Assembly (NCBI GenBank): GCA_030528155.1
Contig: JAUMZL010000012.1
Location: forward strand, 1 to 61,248
Length of the DNA: 61,248 nt
Reading direction: 5' to 3'
DNA from: Aerococcus sp.
GTDB taxonomy: Bacteria; Bacillota; Bacilli; Lactobacillales; Aerococcaceae
In this document: positions 2,864-16,530 of the stretch, piece after piece
Numbering within the stretch: the stretch's first letter is position 1
How the letters are laid out: each line of letters opens with the position of its first letter
Notes under the pieces: model-generated
What the model was told of the DNA's origin: nothing
The model's input: only the letters and a program-made list of their open reading frames with translations
Databases searched by the model: none
Translations under genes and position numbers: made by a program

Positions 2864-3505
2864 CTATTCTGCGTCTTCTTCACCTTTTTCATCGATTACT
2901 TCTGGTTCTTGTTCTTCGATACCAGCTGCTTCTAATTCTTCTTCAGATGGTTCTTCATCTGGGGCAGCGATAGAAACAACAACTTCTTCAGCATCGTCCA
3001 AGATTTCAGCATCTTCCATGTGGTCGAATTTCACGTCAGCAACGGAAATGCTGTCACCGATAGCGAGATCTTTTACGCTAACTTCAATAACTTCAGGTGC
3101 GATCGCTGGGTCCATGTTCACTTTCAATTCGAACAAGTTAGCAGAAGCAACACCAGCAGCGTCAGCCAATTGGTCTTCGTCAACAACACTAATAGGAATG
3201 TTGATATCCAATTTTTGACCTTTCTTGATGGCTTGGAAGCTGATGTTATAGATAATTGGTTTCAAAGAACTGCGAGAGATTTCACGCAAGAAAACGGTAC
3301 GGGTTTCGTCGCCTTCGATTTCCAAATCAAACACGGAGTTAAGACCGAGTTCACGTTCGATTTGTTCAACATCAGCCGCATTCATTTGAATCTTGATTGG
3401 GTCGATGTCACTGGAGTAAACGATACCAGGTACTTGATCAGCTTTACGGATTTGTTTAGATGCAGTAGTACCAGCAGCTTCACGCTGTTTTGCTACAAAT
3501 TTCAT
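2864..3505 (-). CDS. rplY: 50S ribosomal protein L25 / general stress protein Ctc
   Basis: 213 residues: an N-terminal 5S-rRNA-binding L25 domain (about 1-90, with KQIRKADQVPGIVYS), then the TL5 C-terminal beta domain, and a very acidic tail from about residue 185 that is typical of the long CTC form. It binds 5S rRNA in the central protuberance of the large subunit. A good ribosome binding site (CAGGAGGTAACAG) precedes the ATG. It is monocistronic, with its own TTGACA promoter and a shared terminator. In Bacillus this gene is called ctc and is stress induced; nothing here shows a sigma-B promoter. Confidence 0.95.
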   Translation of the reverse strand: MKFVAKQREAAGTTASKQIRKADQVPGIVYSSDIDPIKIQMNAADVEQIERELGLNSVFDLEIEGDETRTVFLREISRSSLKPIIYNISFQAIKKGQKLDINIPISVVDEDQLADAAGVASANLFELKVNMDPAIAPEVIEVSVKDLAIGDSISVADVKFDHMEDAEILDDAEEVVVSIAAPDEEPSEEELEAAGIEEQEPEVIDEKGEEDAE

Positions 3506-3646: not shown

Positions 3647-3830
3647 CCAATACCCTTAATGAATCTGCATTTTGGTCGGCGTGTCATTTTTTATTGGATC
3701 ACCTAATCACGCTGTTTTTGCTCAGAGTATGGTTAAACCTTCGCTGAGCGTGTCGTTTTCAGTAGGGTGTTATAGTACAGAAATTTTCGATGATTATGAG
3801 CGGACAATGCAGCCTCACCGGGGATTATGC

Positions 3831-3874
3831 TATAGTGAAAAAGATAATGAAGCGCTTTACTATAGTGAAAGCGC
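3831..3874 (+). promoter_or_regulatory. Promoter -10 and palindromic operator candidate upstream of the OYE gene
   Basis: An extended -10 (TGCTATAGT, hexamer 3831-3836) is followed by a direct repeat CTATAGTGAAA (3830-3840 and 3860-3870). The second copy is the centre of an inverted repeat GCGCTTT (3852-3858) and AAAGCGC (3868-3874). This could be a repressor site downstream of the transcription start. The stretch 3506-3900 otherwise holds only the ctc promoter and no credible gene. Confidence 0.45.
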
Positions 3875-3900
3875 ATATGAGTGAGGAAAGGAAGGCAGTT

Positions 3901-5130
3901 ATGGCAGAAACACGGGCATCACAATACGAACCGTTATTTGAACCGGTGACCTTACCGAATGGCACCACCTTGGCCAATCGCTGGGCATTGAGTCCAATGA
4001 TTACAAACAGCTCAAGTGCTGAAGGGGAGGTGAGTGAGGAAGATGTGCGTTATGCGAAACGGCGTGCAGGCTCTGCGCCAATTCAGATTACCGGCGCAGC
4101 TTACATTGAAGAATATGCTCAACTGTTTGAGTATGGCTTTGGCTCGGGCGATGATGCTTTGATTCCAGGGTTGAAACGCTTAGCAAGCGCGATGAAACAG
4201 GACGGTGCGAAGGCGATTCTTCAATTAACCCACGCTGGACGTTTTGCGCGGATTGCCCTCAAAGACTTTGGGTTGGTGTATGGGCCATCAGAAATGCATC
4301 TCAATACTCCCATCCCGCACACCGTTTATGAAATGAGCCCTCGCAAAATTCGCCATGTCATTCGGCAATATGGTGAAGCCACGCGCCGTGCGATTCAAGC
4401 CGGCTTTGACGGGGTTGAAATCTCTAATGCCCAACGTCTTCTACCGCAACAATTCTTCTCAACTTTCTCCAATCAACGTCACGATGAATATGGCGTGGAT
4501 TCCCTCGAAAATCGGGCGCGCTTTGGGGTAGAAGTGATGAAAGAAGTACAGCGCGTAGTCAATGACTATGCCAAGGACCCTAAGCAATTCATTATTGGTT
4601 TCCGCGGCACGCCGGAAGAAACCAGAGGCAATACGATTGGCTATACGGCTGAGGAGTTTAATGCTTACTTCGATCAATTATTAGAAGTCGCCGACATTCA
4701 ATACTATGCTTCGGCAAGCTGGGGGCACAATATTTTTGCACAGAAATTGCGGAGCGGCGAACATGCTGGAGAATTGATGAATGAAGTCGTGCACCAGCAT
4801 CTCGCTGGGCGTGTGGTTCTCATGGCCACCGGGGGGATTAATAGCCCTGAAAAGGCTCTTGATGCTCTCCAACACGCGGATATGGTGGGCATGTCGACGC
4901 CATTCATTACCGAACCCGATTTCGTGAAAAAATTGGCAACCGGGCAAAAGGACGCCATTGACCTCAGTTTGGAAGGTAAAGATTTGGATGATTTGGCTAT
5001 TCCAGCACGAGCTTTTAAAGACATTGTTCAAATGATGGATTACGGCGAGTCACTGCCAAAGAGTGCCCGCGATCGTTTCCGTTCTGAAGCAAAGCAATCA
5101 TCCGTTAATTACTTTAAGGACTATCACTAG
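3901..5130 (+). CDS. NADH:flavin oxidoreductase, Old Yellow Enzyme family
   Basis: 409 residues, an FMN-binding TIM barrel of the OYE family, single-domain type. Recognisable family segments are LANRWALSPM near the N-terminus, the ILQLTHAGR strand, the GFDGVEISNAQRLLPQQFFS segment (the usual H/N-AHGYL-QFLSP region, altered here to NAQRLLPQQFFS) and a C-terminal phosphate-binding GGI-P-AL-DMVGMSTPFI region. It probably reduces an activated C=C bond with NAD(P)H. The start is the ATG after GAGGAAAGGAAGG rather than the longest frame. Twelve bases separate it from the luciferase-like gene. OYE and luciferase-like genes are known companions of SirTM/macrodomain/GcvH-L operons, so a role in that pathway is inferred. 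The substrate is unknown. Confidence 0.85.
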   Translation: MAETRASQYEPLFEPVTLPNGTTLANRWALSPMITNSSSAEGEVSEEDVRYAKRRAGSAPIQITGAAYIEEYAQLFEYGFGSGDDALIPGLKRLASAMKQDGAKAILQLTHAGRFARIALKDFGLVYGPSEMHLNTPIPHTVYEMSPRKIRHVIRQYGEATRRAIQAGFDGVEISNAQRLLPQQFFSTFSNQRHDEYGVDSLENRARFGVEVMKEVQRVVNDYAKDPKQFIIGFRGTPEETRGNTIGYTAEEFNAYFDQLLEVADIQYYASASWGHNIFAQKLRSGEHAGELMNEVVHQHLAGRVVLMATGGINSPEKALDALQHADMVGMSTPFITEPDFVKKLATGQKDAIDLSLEGKDLDDLAIPARAFKDIVQMMDYGESLPKSARDRFRSEAKQSSVNYFKDYH

Positions 5131-5142
5131 GAGATGAGAGCC

Positions 5143-6147
5143 ATGGATATCAGCGTACTGGATTACGCGATGATTGATGAAGGAGAAACGCCCACAAAGG
5201 CCTTAGCGAATACGGTAGCACTGGCGCAACATGCCGATCAACTGGGTTATAAACGCTTTTGGATGGCTGAACACCACAATGTCCCAGCCTTCGCCAGCTC
5301 CAGTCCAGCTTTGATCGCGATGCAAATAGCCGCTCAAACCAAACAAATTCATGTGGGTAGTGGTGGGGTGATGTTACCCCACTACAGTCCATTGACTGTG
5401 GCGGAGAATTTTCGCGTCTTAGAGGCTTATTATCCTGGTCGCGTTGATCTCGGCATGGGAAATAATCCCGGGACGCGTCTAGTTAAACGTGCCTTACATG
5501 ATGGGACGTTTGAGGGAAGTGATTACCTTGATGCTATTGCTACGGTAAAGGACTATCTCGAAACGGCAGGTCCCATTGCGACTACCGATGTCGCCGCTCA
5601 GCCAGAGGTGGATAGGGTACCCGAAATGTGGATGCTTTCGACATCAGTAGCGAATGCCATTCAATGTGCGAAATTAGGCATCAGTTACTGTTATGGTTTA
5701 TTCCCTTATGCGCGCGAAGATGGTATTGAAGTGGGAAAAGCAGCTGTAAAAGCCTACCGCGAACATTTCCAACCGTCCGCTAGCCAAAAAGCGCCTCATA
5801 CCATGGCGGCAATTTTTGTCACTGTGGCTGAAGATGATGAGACAGCTAAGCAGTTGACAATGGCACTGGATTGGTGGTTGCTCGGTCGTGATGATTTTAG
5901 TTACTTCAAACAATTTCCATCACTTGAAACGGGCGCACATTATTCAGCGACTGCGAGCGAACAAAAGCAAGCTTTGGCCAATCGCACTCGTATGGCGCAC
6001 GGCACGATTAAGGAAGTGACCGATCAATTGTCGACACTTATGACGACTATTGCAGCTGATGAATTATTGGTCATGCCACTGATTCCTGGGATCGAACGGC
6101 GCAAGCAAGCGCTCACCTTACTCAAAGCGGCTTTGATGGATAAATAA
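5143..6147 (+). CDS. Luciferase-like monooxygenase (LLM family flavoprotein)
   Basis: 334 residues, bacterial luciferase-like fold (MsnO8-type subgroup). Signature segments are the N-terminal ISVLDYAMIDEGETP, then GYKRFWMAEHHN (the conserved AEHH) at about residues 40-52, IHVGSGGVMLPHYSPLTVAENF, and GRVDLGMGN. It uses reduced FMN and O2 on an unknown substrate. The ATG at 5143 is chosen because AGGAG lies 9 bases upstream; the ATG at 5134 would overlap that site. It is in one transcription unit with the preceding OYE flavoenzyme, which could supply reduced flavin. The 271-base gap to the GcvH-like gene has its own promoter. Confidence 0.88.
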   Translation: MDISVLDYAMIDEGETPTKALANTVALAQHADQLGYKRFWMAEHHNVPAFASSSPALIAMQIAAQTKQIHVGSGGVMLPHYSPLTVAENFRVLEAYYPGRVDLGMGNNPGTRLVKRALHDGTFEGSDYLDAIATVKDYLETAGPIATTDVAAQPEVDRVPEMWMLSTSVANAIQCAKLGISYCYGLFPYAREDGIEVGKAAVKAYREHFQPSASQKAPHTMAAIFVTVAEDDETAKQLTMALDWWLLGRDDFSYFKQFPSLETGAHYSATASEQKQALANRTRMAHGTIKEVTDQLSTLMTTIAADELLVMPLIPGIERRKQALTLLKAALMDK

Positions 6148-6336
6148 GGGACTAATCTGCGCCATTCGTTTTGAGAGGGAATGTGCGGATGGAAATTTGA
6201 ATATTTATAAATAGCTGAAAAGGTGTAATCAAGAGCAAGCTCTGAGACTATAGGTAAAAAATGTTTGGTTAGGCGAGGTTGTAGCGCGTGTGATAGGCTT
6301 CGTATCCGCTATTTTTAAGTGCCTATTGCTTTGGAG

Positions 6337-6365
6337 TTGACGATTGTGGCATGCGCTATGATAAT
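6337..6365 (+). promoter_or_regulatory. Promoter of the GcvH-L/macrodomain/SirTM/coaBC operon
   Basis: TTGACG, 17-base spacer, GATAAT. It is located 53 bases before the GcvH-like start, so the ADP-ribosylation genes can be transcribed separately from the OYE-LLM pair. No clear terminator was seen in 6148-6336, so read-through is also possible. Confidence 0.65.
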
Positions 6366-6418
6366 AGAAGAGGCCCACAGGAATGGGTAATAACAAATGA
6401 GGAAAGGAATCCAAACGA

Positions 6419-6823
6419 ATGACAAAACGTGGAAACTATCTCTTTGTAGAGAAAGAAAATATCTATACCTTATCAATGACCCCAGAATTACAAGATGATG
6501 TCGGAACAGTCGGTTACGTGGAATTTGTAAAAGATGATGATGTCGAAAAAAATGGTGCAGTCGCAAATATTGAAGCGTCTAAAACCGTGATGGAAATTCA
6601 ATCTCCCCTCAAAGGAACGGTCATTGCGCGTAACACAGCCGCTGAAGAAAATCCAGCGTTGCTCAATTCTGCTGATCCGGAAGAAAATTGGATTGTTCGT
6701 TTAGTCGGTGTATCGGACAGTGACTATGAAGCATTAGAAGCCGAAGATGGCGAAGTCAGTGCGACAGCTGAAAATAATGAATCAACAAATTCCGCTGTGT
6801 GGCGCCGTGAAGTGATCGAATAA
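6419..6823 (+). CDS. GcvH-like lipoyl carrier protein (GcvH-L) of an ADP-ribosylation operon
   Basis: 134 residues, lipoyl-domain fold of glycine cleavage H protein. The modified lysine is Lys55 in IEASKTVMEIQSPLKG, with the characteristic turn after NGAVAN. The last 25 residues are an extra acidic and Asn/Ser-rich tail. No gcvP or gcvT is nearby. In staphylococci and streptococci the homologous GcvH-L is lipoylated by a dedicated ligase and then ADP-ribosylated by SirTM, the modification being removed by the adjacent macrodomain. The genes for both of those partners follow directly here. GAGGAAAGGAATCCAAACGA precedes the ATG. Confidence 0.9.
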   Translation: MTKRGNYLFVEKENIYTLSMTPELQDDVGTVGYVEFVKDDDVEKNGAVANIEASKTVMEIQSPLKGTVIARNTAAEENPALLNSADPEENWIVRLVGVSDSDYEALEAEDGEVSATAENNESTNSAVWRREVIE

Positions 6824-6873
6824 CTCATCACTACTAAGACGGCCGGTGGAATTGGTCACAAGGAGGGGATCGA

Positions 6874-7674
6874 ATGACCGCCAGACGAGAGCAATTAATT
6901 CAATGGTTACAGGCTGAACGACAAGTGGATAGTGGCGTTGAACCAATACCCATTCCCAATGACGTAGAAGAACAAAAGCGCCTGTTGCATGGGCTAATGA
7001 ACATTCGCCCAGCCAAAGCCATTCCACAGCACATTTTAATGACGCAAAATGCTTATTTGCAGGAATTTAATCAGTCAACCCCGGGCGTTACGTGGGAGGA
7101 TATTCCGCACACGACGAAGCAATTGGCCCTCTGGCAAGGAGATATTCGTGAATTAGCAGTTGATGCGATTGTCAATGCTGCCAACTCACAAATGCTCGGT
7201 TGTTTCATTCCCAATCATCTCTGCATCGATAATGTGATCCAAACACAAGCGGGCATGCAGATGCGCTATGACCTCAGTTTAATGATGGCGGCTTCGGGAC
7301 GGCGCTATGAACCAATTGGCAAGGTGAAGGTGACGAATGGGTACAACTTGCGCGCCCATTATGTTTTCCATACGGTGGGGCCTCGCATCACGAAAGGCAA
7401 AGTGACGCCATTACGCCGAGACATGTTGACTTCATGCTATGAAACTTGTTTAGAAGAGGCCGATGCGATGCAACTTGAAACGCTCGCTTTTTGCTGCCTA
7501 TCAACGGGTGAGTTCCAATTTCCCAATGATCAAGCGGCTGATATTGCGATCACCACCGTGCGTCACTACCTAAAACGCACCCACTCGAAGTTGCGCGTGA
7601 TCTTCAACGTCTACAAGGATCTTGACCGAAAGCTCTACAAAGAACGCTTAGCGCGTATTAATGAGGAGGATTAG
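6874..7674 (+). CDS. Zinc-dependent macrodomain ADP-ribosyl hydrolase (Zn-Macro)
   Basis: 266 residues: an N-terminal helical extension of about 75 residues, then a macrodomain starting LALWQGDIRELAVDAIVNAANSQMLG (ADP-ribose-binding Asp90 and the NAAN motif). The segment GCFIPNHLCIDNVI supplies Cys110, His115 and Cys117, the zinc-ligand set that marks the Zn-Macro class of SirTM operons. The ADP-ribose phosphate loop is CLSTGEFQFPN, corresponding to the G-x-F/Y-x-FP pattern. It removes the mono-ADP-ribose placed by SirTM on GcvH-L. The start has AAGGAGGGGATCGA before it. It ends one base before the sirtuin start, so the two are translationally coupled. Confidence 0.93.
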   Translation: MTARREQLIQWLQAERQVDSGVEPIPIPNDVEEQKRLLHGLMNIRPAKAIPQHILMTQNAYLQEFNQSTPGVTWEDIPHTTKQLALWQGDIRELAVDAIVNAANSQMLGCFIPNHLCIDNVIQTQAGMQMRYDLSLMMAASGRRYEPIGKVKVTNGYNLRAHYVFHTVGPRITKGKVTPLRRDMLTSCYETCLEEADAMQLETLAFCCLSTGEFQFPNDQAADIAITTVRHYLKRTHSKLRVIFNVYKDLDRKLYKERLARINEED

Positions 7675-7675
7675 C

Positions 7676-8587
7676 ATGTGGCAAACCATGAAGCATCCTG
7701 AATTTATGCAGTGGGATGATACGACACGTCTGTTGCATTTACTTTCGGAAGCCGAAGCGGTAGTGGTCGGGGTTGGTGCCGGCTTGGCTGCTGCGGATGG
7801 ATTCACCTATGTAGGCGAGCGATTCCAAACGCACTTTGCCGATTTCATTCAAACAAAAGGCTTCATCGATATGTTACAGGCTTTTGTCAGCGACGACGCT
7901 TATGACTCTTTGGCGGAGTACTGGGCGTTTAAGAGTCGATTCGTGGCGCTAAATGCGCTCGATCAGCCAGTAGGGAAGGCACATCTAGCCTTGAAGAGTT
8001 TACTGGAACAGCAAACATGGCATTTAATTACGACAAATGCGGATAACGGTTTTCGTGTAGCAGGCTACAATCCCAAGAAAGTATTCTACTATCAGGGCGA
8101 ATATGCACTGATGCAGTGCCGTAATTTCTGCCATAGCATGACTTATCGCGATGACCGTCTTATGCGACAAATGGTTGAGCAACAGCATGACCAAAAAGTT
8201 CCGGCCGATCTGATTCCTTATTGCCCGGTTTGTGGGGCACCATTGGAGATCAATAAGCGTGTCGCCGAGAAAGGCATGGTGGAATCACCAGATTGGGTCA
8301 AACAACACCATCGCTACGAGTCCTTTTTAGCCGACTGTGTGAATAAAAAGGTTCTCTACTTAGAAATTGGTGTGGGCAATACGACTCCGCAATTTATTCG
8401 TCAACCTTTCCAACAGCTGACGAGTGAAAATGATCAAGCGCTCTATGTCATGATGAATGCCAAGCCTTACCGCATTCCCAGTCAAATCAACGCGCAAACA
8501 GTGCGGTTAACCAAAGACATTCAGCACACTCTCTGCCAGGCTGCTGCTGAATGGCGCGCAAAGGAGAAGAGCCATGTTAACGAATAA
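7676..8587 (+). CDS. Class M sirtuin (SirTM), protein ADP-ribosyltransferase
   Basis: 303 residues with the sirtuin Rossmann fold. The NAD loop is GVGAGLAAADGFTY (about residues 32-45). The canonical TQNxDxLH is TTNADNGF (Asn121, Asp123), and the histidine base of deacetylases is replaced by Gln140 in YYQGE, which fits a transferase rather than a deacylase. A structural zinc site is formed by Cys148, Cys152, Cys183 and Cys186 (CRNFC and CPVCG). It transfers ADP-ribose from NAD+ to the lipoylated GcvH-L. The ATG at 7676 follows an AGGAGG that lies inside the longer reading frame. Its last 14 bases overlap coaBC. Confidence 0.93.
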   Translation: MWQTMKHPEFMQWDDTTRLLHLLSEAEAVVVGVGAGLAAADGFTYVGERFQTHFADFIQTKGFIDMLQAFVSDDAYDSLAEYWAFKSRFVALNALDQPVGKAHLALKSLLEQQTWHLITTNADNGFRVAGYNPKKVFYYQGEYALMQCRNFCHSMTYRDDRLMRQMVEQQHDQKVPADLIPYCPVCGAPLEINKRVAEKGMVESPDWVKQHHRYESFLADCVNKKVLYLEIGVGNTTPQFIRQPFQQLTSENDQALYVMMNAKPYRIPSQINAQTVRLTKDIQHTLCQAAAEWRAKEKSHVNE

Positions 8588-9797
8588 AAAAATCGCAGTG
8601 GTCATCAGCGGAGGCATTGCCGCTTATAAAATGCCGCTGGTGGTGCGGGCTTTGATCAAAGCGGGGGCAAAGGTGCGCGTGGCGATGACACCAAACGCAG
8701 AGCAATTTGTTACCCGCCAGACACTAGAGACACTGACGCATTACCCCGTTCTTACTGAGAGTACACCGCATTATCCTGAGAGCGTGCCTCACATTGCGCT
8801 GGCAGATTGGGCGGACTATGCGTTGATTGCTCCCGCGACAGCCAATACAATGGGCAAACTGGCTCAGGGGATAGCAGATAATGAGGCGTTGAGTGCGTTA
8901 CTCGCTATGGCTATTCCTACCCTCATTGTGCCAGCCATGAACCACCATATGTGGTTGCATCCCGCTGTTCAAACCAATATTTTAACCTTAAGAAATTACG
9001 GCTACCATGTATTAGAACCAGCAGAGGGATTTTTGGCAGAGGGGTATAATGGCAAAGGCCGCCTCCCTGAACCAGAAGCCATCACGTTGGCTTTAACCGC
9101 GCTTATTGCCAATGCGTCTGCAGAGGTTCCCGATCTCACAGGAGAGGTCGTCGCGATCAGTTTGGGTGGGACAGAGGAACCGATTGATCCGGTCCGCTAT
9201 TTGACGAATCGCTCTAGCGGGAAAATGGGGCTGGCACTCGCCTATACCGCGGCACTAGCCGGAGCAAAGGTGCACGTGATGCTGACGCCCATTGCCCAAA
9301 AGCTGCCACTGCTCACTGAATTTCATAAACATCCTGTCCAAAATGCCGAAGCACTCAAAGATGCCATGCTGGCGGCAAATGAGGCGGCAACCATTATGGT
9401 AATGGCAGCGGCTGTTTCCGATTACCGCACGGCTAACCAAGCGACAGAGAAGATGAAAAAGCAAGATCTAGCTACATCAGGCCGGATCACGCTCGAACTG
9501 GTAGAAAATCCAGATATTCTGCTGGCGTTGGATAATACGGACACGTATCTGGTCGGTTTTGCCGCAGAAACGCAGGACGTAGAGAATTACGCTCGCCAAA
9601 AATTGGTGAAAAAAGGAGCCGATATGATCATTGCGAATGATGTGAGTGACCAAGCAATCGGCTTTGGTAGCGATGATAATGCCGTAAAGGTGATTACGAA
9701 AGATTTTACCCATTCCCTCGCCAAGCAAAGTAAATTTGACATTGCTAGTCAAATTTGGCGGGAAGTCAAACGTGCCAAAGCCTTAGCAAAAAAATAA
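8574..9797 (+). CDS. coaBC: Bifunctional phosphopantothenoylcysteine decarboxylase / phosphopantothenate-cysteine ligase
   Basis: 407 residues, full-length Dfp/CoaBC. The N-terminal FMN decarboxylase half (about 1-190) has GGIAAYK, PATANTMGKLAQGIADN and PAMNHHMW. The C-terminal CTP-dependent ligase half has SLGGTEEPIDPVRYLTNRSSGKMG and a VSDY-x-KMKK segment. It makes 4'-phosphopantetheine in two steps of coenzyme A synthesis. Its ATG lies 14 bases inside the SirTM gene with AAAGGAGAAGAGCC before it, so it is co-transcribed with the ADP-ribosylation genes and stops at a strong terminator. This linkage is unusual. Streptococci have separate coaB and coaC, so the fusion argues against that family. 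Confidence 0.93.
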   Translation: MLTNKKIAVVISGGIAAYKMPLVVRALIKAGAKVRVAMTPNAEQFVTRQTLETLTHYPVLTESTPHYPESVPHIALADWADYALIAPATANTMGKLAQGIADNEALSALLAMAIPTLIVPAMNHHMWLHPAVQTNILTLRNYGYHVLEPAEGFLAEGYNGKGRLPEPEAITLALTALIANASAEVPDLTGEVVAISLGGTEEPIDPVRYLTNRSSGKMGLALAYTAALAGAKVHVMLTPIAQKLPLLTEFHKHPVQNAEALKDAMLAANEAATIMVMAAAVSDYRTANQATEKMKKQDLATSGRITLELVENPDILLALDNTDTYLVGFAAETQDVENYARQKLVKKGADMIIANDVSDQAIGFGSDDNAVKVITKDFTHSLAKQSKFDIASQIWREVKRAKALAKK

Positions 9798-9841: not shown

Positions 9842-10417
9842 CTAATACTCTTCGCCAAGCAAGAAGGTGTGGTCATTCGGCAAGGTCCATGGGGCATCGG
9901 GATCGATATGGTCATAGTACAAGTGGCCATTCAAATGGTCGATTTCGTGTTGCAATACGATCGCTGCATAACCCTTGAAGCGCTTCTTGAAGTGATTGCC
10001 GTCAAGATCATCATACGTCACAGTAATCCGAGCATAGCGGGGGACATAACCTGGCACATCTTCATCAACGGATAGACATCCCTCCCCCATGGACAGACAA
10101 ATCTGTTCCACAGAGTGGCTGACGATGCGTGGGTTCACCATGACCCCCTTCAAGAGAGGGTCAGCCTCATCGTCTTCCAGATCAGGCACTAATAGGGCAA
10201 TCATTTGCTTAGACGCAGCGATCTGTGGTGCGGCATAACCTACTCCAGGACGAATATCATATTTTTCTGCGAGTTCATCATCTTGACTCACTTCCAAGTA
10301 TTCCATCATATCGTGTGCGAGCTGCAAGTCTTCTTTTGATAATGGAAAGGTTAATTTCTTGGCATGTTGGCGTAAAACGGGATGACCATCTTTAGTAATA
10401 TCATCGCGTAAAATCAT
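9842..10417 (-). CDS. def: Peptide deformylase
   Basis: 191 residues, type 2 deformylase as in Gram-positives. Motif 1 is GVGYAAPQ (residues 58-65), motif 2 EGCLSV carries the metal-binding Cys114, and motif 3 QHEIDHLNG supplies two histidines and the catalytic Glu. The insert between motifs 1 and 2 is the usual type 2 lengthening. It removes the N-formyl group from nascent proteins. The start is the second ATG of the frame, because AAAGGAGGAGACGAC lies immediately before it. It is a single-gene unit with its own TTGACT promoter, convergent with coaBC. Confidence 0.95.
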   Translation of the reverse strand: MILRDDITKDGHPVLRQHAKKLTFPLSKEDLQLAHDMMEYLEVSQDDELAEKYDIRPGVGYAAPQIAASKQMIALLVPDLEDDEADPLLKGVMVNPRIVSHSVEQICLSMGEGCLSVDEDVPGYVPRYARITVTYDDLDGNHFKKRFKGYAAIVLQHEIDHLNGHLYYDHIDPDAPWTLPNDHTFLLGEEY

Positions 10418-10452
10418 GTCGTCTCCTCCTTTGTTGACTAGCATTCCTGCTT

Positions 10453-11298: not shown

Positions 11299-12396
11299 AT
11301 GGCGAAACAACCAGTTGATTATGAGAAACAATTGGAACATATCAGCGAAGAGTTCCAGATGGTTCGTATCTTGGACGAAGAAGGCAATGTTGTTAATGAA
11401 GACATTATGCCAGACCTCAGCGATGACGAGCTCGTTGATTTAATGAAATGGATGGTTAAATCACGGACATTGCATGAACGCTCCACTGCATTCTCTAAAC
11501 AAGGACGTTTAGGGTTTTACGCACCAACTTACGGGCAAGAAGCTTCTCAAATGGCTTCTATTTACGCTTCTGAAGAAGGAGACTGGCTCTATGGTGGGTA
11601 TCGTGACTTACCACAATTAATCTACAAAGGCTTGACTTACGAACAAGGCTTCCTCTGGTCACGTGGTCACGTGAACGGAAACGATGCTGGCGTGAAAGCA
11701 ATGATGCCACAAATTATCATCGGGGCACAATTGATCCAAGCGGTCGGGAATGCAACGGGTCAAAAATTAAAAGGTGAAAAGAACGTTACCTTTACCTACA
11801 CCGGTGATGGTGGTTCCAGTCAAGGGGACTCCTATGAAGCTTGGAACTGGGCAAGTCGTTACAAATCACCAGTAGTTTTCGTTATCCAAAACAATGGGTT
11901 TGCGATTTCAACGCCACGCTACAAACAAACCGCTGCGCATACCTTAGCGCAAAAAGCAGTAGCAGCAGGAATTCCAGGGATCCAAGTTGATGGGAACGAT
12001 GCGTTAGCTGTTTATGCGGTAACCAAACAAGCGCGTGAATGGGCAGCAGCTGGTAACGGTCCAGTATTAATTGAAACGGTAACCAACCGTCTCGGTGCTC
12101 ACTCCACTCAAGGGGACAACCCTAAACTCTATCGTACACAAGAAGATATCGATATGTGGATGGCCCGCGAACCACTCATTCGTTTCCGTGCTTACTTGGA
12201 AAACAAAGGTCTCTGGAACGAAAAAATGGAAGAAGAATGGGTAGCTGAAGTCACAGAAGACATCAACCAAGCAATCAAGGATGCCGAAGCACAACCAAAA
12301 CAAAAAGTTTCCGACTTCTTGAAGAGCATGTTTGCTAACCCAGGACAAAACATCAAAGAACAAATCGAACAATACGAAGCTAAGGAGCGTGAATAA
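11299..12396 (+). CDS. pdhA: Pyruvate dehydrogenase E1 component, alpha subunit
   Basis: 365 residues. Thiamine diphosphate-dependent E1 alpha of the heterotetrameric type. The ThDP motif is [17 protein letters not shown] followed by VIQNN; the phosphorylation-loop-like [12 protein letters not shown] is also present. With E1 beta it decarboxylates pyruvate and passes the acetyl group to E2 lipoyl. The start ATG has GAAAGGAAAGTGTTAGAAC upstream. It is first of a four-gene operon pdhA-B-C-D, two bases before pdhB. Branched-chain 2-oxo acid dehydrogenase E1 is the main alternative; the sequence and four-gene order fit PDH better. Confidence 0.92.
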
Positions 12397-12398
12397 GC

Positions 12399-13388
12399 AT
12401 GGCGAAAAAGAAAACAGGAAAAACAATGATCGAAGCCATCACTGAAACCTTAGATCAGGAGATGGAACAAGACGACAAGATCATTCTCTTCGGTGAAGAC
12501 GTTGGTAAAAACGGCGGGGTTTTCCGTGCATCCACGGGCTTATGGGAAAAATATGGGGAAGAACGTGTTTCTGACACCCCATTATCTGAATCCGGTATCG
12601 GTGGGATGGCTATTGGGTTAGCTGTTCAAGGCTTCCACCCAATCATGGAAATCCAGTTCCTCGGTTTCGTATTTGAAGTGATGGACTCCATTGCTGGTCA
12701 AATGGCGCGTACTCGCTTCCGTTATGGCGCAACCCGTCATCTGCCAATCGTTGTTCGTTCGCCATTTGGTGGTGGGACACATACCGCTGAAATGCACGGG
12801 GACTCCTTAGAAGGAACCTTAGCACAAGTCCCAGGGTTGAAAGTTGTTATTCCATCCAACCCATACGATGCAAAAGGACTCTTAGCTTCTGCTATTCATG
12901 ATGACGATCCTGTTGTCTTCCTCGAACACTTGAAACTTTACCGTTCATTCCGTGAAGAAGTGCCAAGCGAACGTTATGAAATTCCTTTGAATCAAGCCAA
13001 CGTTAGCCGCGAAGGTAGCGATGTAACGATTGTGTCTTATGGTTACATGGTTCGTGAATCCTTGAAAGCAGCGGATGAACTTGAAAAAGAAGGTATTTCT
13101 GCTGAAGTGATCGACTTGCGTACCGTTTCGCCAATCGACTACGAAACAATCGGTAAATCCATTGAAAAGACTGGTCGCCTTGTCATGGTGCAAGAAGCAC
13201 AACGTCAAGCCGGTGTAGGAGCAAACGTCATTTCTGAAGTTTCCCAACGCTACATTCTTTCCTTGGAAGCGCCAATTCAGTTTGTTTCCGCACCAGACTC
13301 TGTCTTCCCATTTGCTTTGGCAGAAGACTACTGGTTGCCAAATGCTGATGACATTATCCAAGCAGTGAAGAAAACGACTGAATTCTAG
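12399..13388 (+). CDS. pdhB: Pyruvate dehydrogenase E1 component, beta subunit
   Basis: 329 residues, transketolase-like pyrimidine-binding domain followed by the transketolase C-terminal domain. Landmarks are [15 protein letters not shown], the cofactor-contacting [25 protein letters not shown], and the C-terminal [15 protein letters not shown]. It completes the ThDP active site together with PdhA. The ribosome binding site AAGGAGCG lies in the end of pdhA, so the two subunits are translationally coupled. The C-terminal region also carries the E2-docking surface in this family. Confidence 0.94.
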
Positions 13389-13429
13389 TTGGCGTTGCAT
13401 AAATAACAAAAGAAGGGATGAAAGCAAAC

Positions 13430-15076
13430 ATGGCTTATATTTTCAAATTGCCTGATGTCGGCGAAGGCATGAACGAAGGCGACATCGATACTTGGCATGT
13501 CAAAGTTGGCGACGAAGTCAAAGAAGAAGACGTGTTAGTTGAAATTCAAAACGACAAATCTGTAAATGAAATTGTTTCTCCAGTATCTGGGAAGGTGACC
13601 TACCTTTATGCAGAGGAAGGCGACACCGTGGAAGTCGGTGAACCATTGATCGAATTTGATGGTGACGGCACGGGCGCTGGCGCAGATGATGCAGCAGAAG
13701 CTGCACCAGCAGCTGAAGAAACGCCAGCACCAGCTCCTGCAGCTAACAGCGAAGCTTACATCTTCAACTTACCTGACGTAGGCGAAGGGATGAACGAAGG
13801 AGAAATCGACACCTGGCACGTTAAAGTAGGTGACACCGTTAAGGAAGAAGACGTTCTGGTTGAAATCCAAAACGACAAATCCGTTAACGAAATTGTTTCG
13901 CCACACGCTGGGGTAGTTACCCACCTCTTCGCAGAAGAAGGCGACATCGTTGAAGTTGGGGAACCATTGATCGAATTCGATGGTGACGGCACAGGTGCTG
14001 CTGCCCCTTCAGCTGATGTGGCTAGTGGCGCAAGTGATGCAGCACCAAGCACCACGCCATCACCAGCTGAAGCGCCAAGTGGTTCAACCGGTGCAGCTGC
14101 TGGTCCAAATAATGTACCAGCTATTGCTGACCCAAACCGCCTGATCCAAGCAATGCCATCTGTCCGTCAATATGCACGTGAACAAGGTATTGACATTTCT
14201 CAAGTTCCTGGTAGTGGGAAGAATGGACGCATCCTGAAAGCGGATATTGATGCCTTCAAGAGCGCACCACAAGCTGCTGAAGCACCAGCTGAGCCAGCTA
14301 CTAAGAGTGAAGCACAGACGCCACAAGCAGAAAAAGCGCCTAAAGCAAGTGCTCCACAACCATCGACCCACGAAGAATTGGTTGAACACGTTAAGATTCC
14401 AGGCATGCGTAAAGCCATCGCTAAGAGTGTTGGTCAATCTTACCTGGTACCACAAGTTACCTTGTTCAAACAATTCAACGCAGACAAGCTGTATGATCAC
14501 CGCAAACGTATGAAGGAAATTGCTGCAAAACAAGACGCACACTTGACTTTCTTACCATATGTGGTTAAAGCTTTGGTTGGTGCCATGAAGAAACACCCAA
14601 CCTTGAATGCTGTGGTTGACGAAGCCAATAACGAATACTTGATCAAACATTACTACAACATCGGGATTGCAACCGATACGCCACATGGTCTCTATGTTCC
14701 AGTCATCAGAGATGCTGACAAGAAATCCTTAATCCAAATTGCTAATGAAATTACGGAACTATCACAAAAAGCGCATGAAGGAACCTTAAGTGCTAGCGAT
14801 ATGGCGGACTCCACCATCACGATTTCTAACATTGGTTCTGCTCGTGGAGACTTCTTCACCCCAATCATTAATGGTGACGATGTTGCGATCTTAGGATTCG
14901 GCTCTATCGTTCAAGAACCAGTAGTGAACGAAGCGGGCGAAATTGTGGTAGGACGCGTAGTGAAACTCTCCCTGACCTTCGACCACCGTATCAATGACGG
15001 TTCAGAAGGACAGAAAGCATTAAACGACCTTGGACGCTTACTCGGTGACCCAGATCTCTTATTGCTTGAAGGATAA
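13430..15076 (+). CDS. pdhC: Pyruvate dehydrogenase E2, dihydrolipoamide acetyltransferase with two lipoyl domains
   Basis: 548 residues. Two lipoyl domains (about 1-78 and 105-183) share nearly identical cores ([21 protein letters not shown], lipoyl lysine in [10 protein letters not shown]), joined by Ala/Pro/Glu-rich flexible linkers. An E3/E1-binding domain follows at about 235-275 ([27 protein letters not shown]), then the catalytic domain with [10 protein letters not shown] near the end. It forms the complex core and makes acetyl-CoA. I chose the second ATG because the family begins [13 protein letters not shown] and the first ATG abuts the ribosome binding site. The single-lipoyl version is common, so the domain duplication is notable. 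Confidence 0.94.
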
Positions 15077-15117
15077 TCAGATAATAAGGATAAACAAGCG
15101 GAAAGGACGTAGAGTAA

Positions 15118-16530
15118 ATGGTAGTAGGAACATTAGCGATTGAGTTGGACACCGTTGTTATCGGTGCCGGCCCAGGAGGCTATGTAGCAGCGATCCGTGC
15201 TGCACAAGAAGGACAACAAGTAGCCATTGTTGAGCGCTACGACACATTAGGTGGGGTCTGCTTGAACGTTGGCTGTATTCCATCCAAAGCAATGATCCAA
15301 GCCGGACATCACTTCCACCATGCTAATGGCGGTTCAGAAACCTTCGGAATCACCAGCGAAGCTAAATTAGACTTCGCTAAATTGCAAGATTGGAAGCAAA
15401 ACCAAGTCGTTAAAAAGATGACCGGTGGGGTCGAATACCTCATGAAGAAGAACAAGATTGATGTTCTTCATGGGACAGCTTACATTAACAATGATCACGA
15501 ATTTACCTTGATGAAAGACGACGATACCCACGAATTGTACAAATTCAACAATATGATCGTAGCAACGGGTTCACGTCCAATCGAAATCCCTGGCTTCAAA
15601 TTTGGTGGCCGTGTGGTAGACTCCACGGGGGGATTGAACCTGCCAGAAATGCCTAAGAAATTTGTGGTTATCGGTGGTGGGGTAGTTGGCTCTGAATTAG
15701 GGACAGCGTATGCTAACCTCGGTGCCGAAGTAACGATCTTAGAAGGTAGCCCACAAATCTTGCCTTCCTTCGAAAAGGACATCGTTAAGGTTGTTCAAAA
15801 AGAAATGGAAGCAAAAGGCATGCACGTGATCACCAAAGCAATGGCTAAAGAAGCGATTGACAATGGCGATTCTGTAACCATCAAATATGAAGTAGATGGC
15901 AAAGAAGAAGAAATTACGGCAGACTATGTCATGGTTTCTGTTGGTCGTCGTCCAAATACGGATGATCTTGGCCTGGAAGCTGCTGGGGTAGAAATGCTCG
16001 ACCGTGGTTTAGTCAAAGTTGACAACCAAGGCCGTACCTCTGTGCCACACATCTACGCGATTGGGGATATTGTTCCGGGTGCTGCTTTAGCTCACAAAGC
16101 TTCCTATGAAGGAATTGTGGCTGCTGAAGCGATTGCCGGCAAAGCTAGCGCCGTTGATTACAAATCAATGCCCGCTGTTGCTTACGTTGACCCTGAAATC
16201 GCACAATACGGCATGACCAAAGCGGAAGCTAAAGAAAAAGGCCTAGACGTTCATGACTTCAAGTTCCCTTGGAGTGCGAACGGTCGTGCGGTGGCTATGG
16301 ACGAACAAGAAGGATTCTTGCGCTTAGTGGCAACGAAAGGCGATAATGTGATTGTTGGCGGGCAAATGGTTGGTCCACAAGCTTCTGATGTCATGGCTGA
16401 AGTTGGTTTAGCGATCGAAGCCGGTATGACCGCGGAAGATATTGCATTGACTATTCACGGTCACCCAACCTTGACCGAAGCGATCAAAGATGCAGCAGAA
16501 GGTTTGTTAGGCAAACCTGTTAACCTCTAG
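15118..16530 (+). CDS. pdhD: Dihydrolipoamide dehydrogenase (E3)
   Basis: 470 residues, class I pyridine nucleotide-disulfide oxidoreductase. FAD loop GAGPGGY (about 17-23), redox disulfide in GGVCLNVGCIPSK, NAD loop GGGVVGSELG, second FAD motif ThYAIGDIV-type (IYAIGDIVPG) and the C-terminal His-Glu pair in HGHPTLTE. It reoxidises dihydrolipoyl groups of PdhC and reduces NAD+. It is last of the pdh operon and is followed by a terminator. It may also serve the lipoylated GcvH-L elsewhere in this window. Confidence 0.95.
   Translation: MVVGTLAIELDTVVIGAGPGGYVAAIRAAQEGQQVAIVERYDTLGGVCLNVGCIPSKAMIQAGHHFHHANGGSETFGITSEAKLDFAKLQDWKQNQVVKKMTGGVEYLMKKNKIDVLHGTAYINNDHEFTLMKDDDTHELYKFNNMIVATGSRPIEIPGFKFGGRVVDSTGGLNLPEMPKKFVVIGGGVVGSELGTAYANLGAEVTILEGSPQILPSFEKDIVKVVQKEMEAKGMHVITKAMAKEAIDNGDSVTIKYEVDGKEEEITADYVMVSVGRRPNTDDLGLEAAGVEMLDRGLVKVDNQGRTSVPHIYAIGDIVPGAALAHKASYEGIVAAEAIAGKASAVDYKSMPAVAYVDPEIAQYGMTKAEAKEKGLDVHDFKFPWSANGRAVAMDEQEGFLRLVATKGDNVIVGGQMVGPQASDVMAEVGLAIEAGMTAEDIALTIHGHPTLTEAIKDAAEGLLGKPVNL

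Follow-up and report, generated by a model that had tools for sequence, protein, structure and literature searches.

A scattered extended SirTM operon in Aerococcus sp. with a displaced LplA2 ligase and GcvH-L as the likely lipoyl donor to pyruvate dehydrogenase

The SirTM operon and its genes

The stretch of DNA considered here (the window; 61,248 nt) lies on contig C2 of a draft genome of Aerococcus sp. (GCA_030528155.1; 95.5% complete, 38 contigs) and carries, in a scattered form, the known extended SirTM operon, which encodes an OYE-type NADH:flavin oxidoreductase (OYE), a luciferase-like monooxygenase (LLM), the lipoyl carrier GcvH-L, a Zn-macrodomain protein (Zn-Macro), and the class M sirtuin SirTM. 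Genomes of the family are designated by G-numbers (G000 is the genome holding the window), retrieved loci by L-numbers, and contigs of G000 by C-numbers. Two sets, which overlap in some genomes, were used for comparison: 76 family genomes, in 32 of which SirTM was found (13 of these within the genus), and a set of named loci numbering at least 80 among the matches listed, 65 of which contain both GcvH-L and SirTM. Eight Streptococcus loci were retrieved; S. pyogenes is absent from the named loci listed.

The core of the operon consists of three genes on the forward strand: GcvH-L (6419..6823), which matches S. pyogenes GcvH-L (SpyGcvH-L, PDB 5a35) with E=3.2e-31; the Zn-macrodomain, a protein-ADP-ribose hydrolase by homology (6874..7674), which matches the S. 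aureus enzyme (SauMacro, 5kiv) with E=1.1e-67 and PRK04143 with 308.6 bits (cut-off 272); and SirTM (7676..8587), which aligns with S. pyogenes SirTM (5a3a/b/c, E=2.2e-100) over residues 16-286. A preliminary description made from the sequence had placed these genes in a row and named their diagnostic residues, and both statements are borne out: all three are real open reading frames (ORFs) with matches far beyond chance, and carrier Lys55, macrodomain Cys110/His115/Cys117, and SirTM Asn121/Asp123/Gln140 are all present. The range that it delimited (6419..9797) contains the operon core, but it also takes in coaBC, which we judge to be a non-member, and omits two upstream members on the same strand, namely OYE (3790..5130, PF00724 172 bits; start ambiguous between the ATG codons at 3790, 3796, 3847, 3877, and 3901) and LLM (5134..6147, TIGR03558 339 bits, cut-off 167), the latter separated from GcvH-L by 271 bp (6147 to 6419). 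Among the 65 listed loci with GcvH-L and SirTM, OYE occurs in 60 and LLM in 61, and the window shares this association of both oxidoreductases with the core; the other hallmark of the extended operon, an LplA2 ligase encoded together with GcvH-L, the macrodomain, and SirTM, is missing here, the LplA2-clade ligase of this genome being on C29. The five genes and the C29 ligase form a single system but no single operon. In G012, OYE and LLM are separated by an ABC-type gene. Scans for promoter-like sites (12 found, 14.0 expected) and terminator-like sites (10 found, 9.1 expected) were left out of the argument.

In SirTM, Asn121, Asp123, Gln140 (in place of His), and Arg195 are invariant across 14 aligned SirTMs, and the protein displays the signature of class M sirtuins (QG for HG, the Asn and Asp of TTNAD, and the equivalent of Arg192 in the alignment with 5a3a), the roles of the catalytic residues being those described for the orthologues (PMC4518038). 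As a member of this class, the enzyme is predicted to transfer ADP-ribose without acting as a deacylase. The Zn ligands of the macrodomain align with those of 5kiv over residues 3-261, the N-terminal part included, so that, by alignment, the protein is predicted to have the Cys-His-Cys loop, the N-terminal three-helix region, and the MacroD-type fold that characterize Zn-Macro.

In GcvH-L, Lys55, Glu52, Asp26, and Glu23 correspond to K56, E53, D27, and E24 of SpyGcvH-L, a one-residue offset in the alignment with 5a35, and the carrier thus contains both the ExxK lipoyl site (E52/K55) and the equivalents of Glu24 and Asp27 (E23/D26). Asp27 was reported as the likely ADP-ribosylation site of SpyGcvH-L, helped by Glu24 (PMC4518038); accordingly named by homology, Asp26 is the predicted ADP-ribosylation site and Glu23 its predicted helper. 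Glu23 is found in 97/97 GcvH-L rows (some genomes are present twice), in none of the 30 best-scoring H proteins, which were treated as canonical, and in 1/19 other H-like rows, which include L223, the canonical GcvH of G007 (L224 gave no row). An acidic residue at position 26 is also common in canonical (27/30) and other H-like rows (16/19) besides all 97 GcvH-L rows, and only Glu23 is therefore diagnostic of GcvH-L. A C-terminal tail ending SAVxRRE[VI]I after a variable stretch occurs in GcvH-L of G000 (window 6740-6823) and G012 (L036:6502-6972), and G011 is without it. A third GcvH-like class (L215-L234 except L223 and L224), common in the family, is encoded outside the SirTM operon, scores far below canonical GcvH, has an E[AG]xKA lipoyl site in 18/18 rows, and may be the usual lipoyl relay carrier of the family.

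Lipoate ligases of the genome

No ligase gene was found within the window, as the preliminary description had noted. It had proposed a genome search for lplA, lipL, and lipM, and this yields four LplA/LipB-fold genes, all on other contigs: three LplA-type ligases exceeding the TIGR00545 cut-off (C17, C26, C29) and one LipL-like gene (C14). In a tree of 54 ligases, C29 falls into one clade with 31 LplA2 rows (32 rows in all, support 100/98) and hence with operon-encoded ligases, and two rows that the program marked as very long both fall outside this clade. The operon ligases of relatives likewise match C29 best, rather than C17 or C26. Because bit scores separate LplA2 from LplA1 poorly (310.1 vs 307.6), the class assignment rests on the tree. 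The C29 ligase adjoins ezrA, a nifS-type cysteine desulfurase gene, and thiI, and its orthologues occupy the same site in G011 and G012, the two closest relatives (each 85% complete). Since a member of the LplA2 clade is found at the same site in all three genomes, the ligase appears to have been displaced, not lost, and the description of the operon as being without its lipoate ligase does not hold. Loss of the ligase is rejected in view of the four LplA/LipB-fold genes and the position of C29 in the LplA2 clade.

An LplA2-class ligase is present in 32/32 SirTM genomes of the family, 31 of them represented on the tree; the remaining one, G022, has a broken and unplaced copy in two ORFs of different frames beside the GcvH-L operon (L064:4751-5799). 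The ligase gene immediately follows SirTM in 19 of these genomes; it stands divergently beside the cluster in three (G022, G047, G058), beside a second SirTM in two (G007, G008), and elsewhere in eight (G000, G005, G011, G012, G016, and G055-G057). It is thus away from the GcvH-L operon in 10/32, and such separation is not unusual. Among the 65 listed loci with GcvH-L and SirTM, LplA2 is directly 3' of SirTM in 60, at another position in one, and not found within the fetched stretch in four. Within the genus, an LplA2-clade ligase directly follows SirTM in six of the 13 SirTM-bearing genomes; this comes close to the refuting condition set in the preliminary description, an LplA2 gene in the same operon of closely related strains (recent loss), but in the form of relocation or replacement instead of loss. 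More generally, the absence of LplA2 from such an operon need not mean that the ligase is missing from the genome.

Several other arrangements were observed among the ligases. In G028 (L209:6571-8836), GcvH-L, Zn-Macro, and LplA2 stand in a row and SirTM was not found, which would leave an eraser without a writer; of the other 43 SirTM-free genomes, only G009, G010, G052, and G064 are on the ligase tree. In Aerococcus and Jeotgalicoccus, there is another type of SirTM whose only partner is LplA2 (L067:7090-9082, L068:486-2490, L304-L308), with no GcvH-L or macrodomain match in the fetched stretch; this second type also occurs as lone copies in L066 (G005) and L070 (G016). The C26 ligase, which has relatives in G012 and G014, is encoded behind, and in the same direction as, a folate-family energy-coupling factor (ECF) transporter S component (L002:1111-2922, -), and the two are possibly a pair for lipoate uptake and ligation.

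The only H protein found, the LipL-like enzyme, and pyruvate dehydrogenase

The window also carries the pyruvate dehydrogenase (PDH) operon (E1alpha, E1beta, E2, E3; 11299..16530, +), recognized by NCBIfam models and the Biotin_lipoyl and 2-oxoacid_dh domains; E1alpha and E3 exceed the NCBIfam cut-offs, and E1beta and E2 are below their own cut-offs but match PDH models best. The E2 gene (13418-15076) encodes two Biotin_lipoyl stretches, with DKS lysines Lys47 and Lys154, and a 2-oxoacid_dh domain, and its lipoyl domains are the likely final lipoyl acceptor. GcvH-L is the sole PF01597 match in G000, and neither LipA nor the glycine decarboxylase P protein (GDC-P) has a match in this genome. 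With no other H protein and no LipA detected, GcvH-L is the likely lipoyl donor for the LipL-like enzyme. At a threshold of at least 30 bits, GcvH-L is the only H protein in six of the 32 SirTM genomes (G000, G011, G012, G013, G016, and G025), all of which carry a LipL-like gene; in G016, which is a single contig and 99% complete, neither LipA nor GDC-P is found over the cut-off.

The C14 protein scores 209 bits against NF053589 (cut-off 400) and, being below the cut-off of the LipL equivalog model, is called LipL-like only. Five of the nine operon-encoded LipL-like proteins scanned (four from Streptococcus, one from Atopobacter) fall in a similar range of 200-269. The cysteine of the SYCPG motif, which we take to be catalytic, is kept in 40/40 aligned LipL-like rows including the C14 protein (30 chromosomal and 10 operon rows, Atopobacter being counted twice), and the Tyr position is Phe in four examples. 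LipL-like genes are present in 74/76 family genomes, the two exceptions being 63% and 51% complete and both without SirTM, and for this reason their occurrence in all 32 SirTM genomes alone says little.

A closer association is seen in streptococci. Immediately upstream of OYE, and in the same orientation, all eight retrieved Streptococcus loci and that of Atopobacter phocae carry a LipL-like gene whose stop-to-stop frame overlaps that of OYE or is separated from it by 16 nt at most; the operon-encoded LipL-like proteins form one clade (100/99). In the eight Streptococcus genomes, the operon copy is the sole LipL-like gene, GcvH-L is the sole H protein above 40 bits, and the third LplA-fold protein is a ligase of 332-351 codons encoded elsewhere. 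Loader, carrier, unloader, writer, and eraser are thus encoded together in these streptococci and scattered in G000. No mention of a LipL-like gene in the streptococcal SirTM operon was found in the literature searched, a search that was incomplete, and we do not claim that the gene is unpublished; the word LipL is absent from the main texts of Rack 2015 and of the 2024 JBC paper.

Comparison with known systems

The system shares OYE, LLM, GcvH-L, Zn-Macro, and SirTM, together with their catalytic and acceptor residues, with the extended SirTM operons of S. aureus (sav0322-0327) and S. pyogenes (PMC4518038), and it resembles S. pyogenes in that GcvH-L is the sole H protein found. It differs from them in having its LplA2 on another contig and its cluster between rplY and coaBC-def-pdh. 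In addition, G000 possesses a LipL-like gene, whereas the S. pyogenes table of Rack et al. lists only LplA1 and LplA2. With the GcvH/LipL relay of B. subtilis and S. aureus (PMC5049849, PMC13155669), the genome has in common a LipL-like transferase, an H-protein carrier, and PDH E2 as acceptor; unlike in those organisms, neither LipA nor a canonical GcvH was found, and the sole carrier found is of the ADP-ribosylatable kind. S. aureus LipL is reported to take lipoyl from GcvH or GcvH-L (PMC13155669), and the use of GcvH-L by LipL had been raised as a possibility (PMC5049849). Minimal SirTM/Zn-Macro pairs and fungal Mfs1 fusions (PMC11490716) contain the same pair of enzymes but are described without GcvH-L and ligase. 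A single 587-aa ORF fusing Zn-Macro and SirTM, the layout known from Mfs1, is present in G024 (L043:6906-8666, -).

A proposed lipoyl relay

In the orthologous systems, LplA2 lipoylates GcvH-L, SirTM then ADP-ribosylates it, and the macrodomain reverses the modification (PMC4518038). By analogy, scavenged lipoate would be joined to Lys55 of GcvH-L by the LplA2-type ligase (C29), and possibly also by an LplA1-type ligase (C17), and the LipL-like enzyme (C14) would transfer the lipoyl group of GcvH-L to both lipoyl domains of PDH E2. As suggested by the biochemistry of the orthologues, SirTM would ADP-ribosylate lipoyl-GcvH-L at Asp26 using NAD+, and Zn-Macro would remove the ADP-ribose tag as its S. 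aureus and S. pyogenes counterparts do; the tag may hold lipoyl on the carrier, away from both PDH loading and OYE. GcvH-L is therefore probably a lipoyl relay to PDH, and SirTM and Zn-Macro may gate this relay. A complete version of such gating, in which GcvH-L is charged by LplA2 and discharged onto PDH E2 by the LipL-like enzyme, and reversible ADP-ribosylation of the charged carrier toggles the flow and ties PDH activation to NAD+ and redox state, is a tentative model to which we give rather less than even odds. The role of GcvH-L ADP-ribosylation in the cell is left open in the available texts of PMC4518038 and PMC11490716, and genomes combining GcvH-L as the sole H protein found with a LipL-like gene, whether inside the operon or at another site, would make control of lipoyl delivery to PDH by the tag directly testable.

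Alternative explanations

The explanation as a whole, that is, a scattered extended SirTM operon with a displaced LplA2 and with GcvH-L as the likely LipL donor to PDH, is assigned a probability of roughly 0.7. Several observations weigh against it. The SirTM and LplA2 trees differ on the nearest kin of the system (the groups compared were chosen post hoc), so that the present C29 ligase may be a foreign substitute instead of the relocated original; the scores of the LipL-like proteins fall short of curated LipL cut-offs, and in G043, a SirTM genome, the gene is in two pieces; the closeness of the operon to PDH is at chance level in a control with probe genes; and absences come mostly from draft genomes and are hence not proof. 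Replacement, with the operon losing its first ligase and another lineage (Ruoffia or G058-like) later supplying the one on C29, is possible, though we consider it the lesser chance. The C29 group branches with G016 and G055-G058 in the LplA2 tree (100/99), and SirTM of the same genomes groups with that of G005, G007, G008, and G014 in its own tree (98/92); moreover, a topology uniting the G000, G011, G012, and G014 ligases is rejected (approximately unbiased (AU) test, p 0.02). The SirTM side of this conflict is weak, with AU p values of 0.04-0.05 for groups picked after the trees had been seen, the much lower ligase-side value (AU p 2.6e-18) concerns a group that contains G007/G008, with ligases belonging to a second SirTM locus, as well as G005, and the macrodomain tree fails to settle the matter. 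Overall, the SirTM, macrodomain, and LplA2 trees agree too poorly to choose between a move and a replacement of the ligase.

It had also been suggested that lipoylation of the carrier comes from elsewhere in the genome or by another route. The former agrees with the ligase on C29, and loss of the operon's own ligase with lipoylation by an unrelated route is very unlikely: it would fit the window, which contains no ligase, and the ability of S. aureus LplA1 to lipoylate GcvH-L (PMC4518038), but not an LplA2-clade ligase on C29 whose site is conserved in the two closest relatives. A further challenge concerns the relay itself, since direct lipoylation of PDH E2 by the LplA1-type ligases (C17, C26) could make it dispensable. 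GcvH-L would then serve solely in oxidative stress with OYE and LLM, a redox role proposed by Rack et al. (PMC4518038), and LipL as well as the absence of other H proteins would be incidental. This redox function accords with the two further LplA-type ligases, both over the TIGR00545 cut-off, with the binding of lipoyl-GcvH-L by S. pyogenes OYE (SpyOYE; PMC4518038), and with the description of the S. aureus operon as a redox-sensitive lipoate salvage switch (PMC13343841). As the only function of GcvH-L we regard it as unlikely, because it leaves unexplained why the sole LipL-like gene stands in the operon beside the sole H protein in 8/8 Streptococcus genomes. The redox-carrier and lipoyl-relay roles are compatible and not mutually exclusive.

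CoaBC and the landing site

The operon is bordered on the left by rplY (L25/Ctc; 2864..3505, -; TIGR00731 90 bits, cut-off 73.1) and followed by coaBC (8574..9797, +; TIGR00521 398 bits, cut-off 219.7) and the peptide deformylase gene def (9842..10444, -; TIGR00079 133 bits, cut-off 103.95). The coaBC gene, the sole CoaBC match in its genome, starts 14 nt within the 3' end of SirTM, and is located near def and the PDH operon in nine of the 10 other genus members examined (G005-G008, G010, G013, G014, G016, and G018), where at most about 1.7 kb separates coaBC from def and the stretch contains no match to SirTM; in the tenth (G009), coaBC is near a contig end, with neither def nor pdh in view. 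The rplY gene is near coaBC in six of the same 10 genomes and is present in the stretches of G000 and G011, while that of G012 shows none. Because the coaBC-def-pdh neighborhood exists without SirTM, it appears that in the lineage comprising G000, G011, and G012 the SirTM cluster came to its place between coaBC and rplY.

CoaBC is consequently judged a bystander and an old neighbor of def and the PDH operon, and its recruitment into the operon is rejected on the basis of the synteny common to genus members without SirTM there. That CoaBC is a functional new member replacing LplA2 is extremely unlikely in our estimation. The 14-nt overlap would favor it, as would the place of CoaBC after SirTM in both G011 and G012, its distance of about 1.2 kb to the operon in G047, and the CoaB/CoaC-like ORFs found on the opposite strand 5' of the operon (of its LipL-like gene) in four of the eight Streptococcus loci (L259, L287, L291, and L299), a frequency without a chance control. 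However, CoaBC is single-copy, its location by def and pdh is common to genus members lacking SirTM there, and in G012 there is no overlap between the SirTM and CoaBC frames, read from stop to stop.

We also considered, and rejected, the idea that function draws the operon toward the PDH locus, the association being at chance level when 88 genes of G000 served as control probes (LplA probes not counted). Among these, five ordinary ones (L072:4429, L072:1052, L072:2544, and window 52918 and 35322) also lay close to an operon or to SirTM in some other lineage. The SirTM operon of Falseniella ignava (L052, L251) is likewise located near def and the PDH operon.

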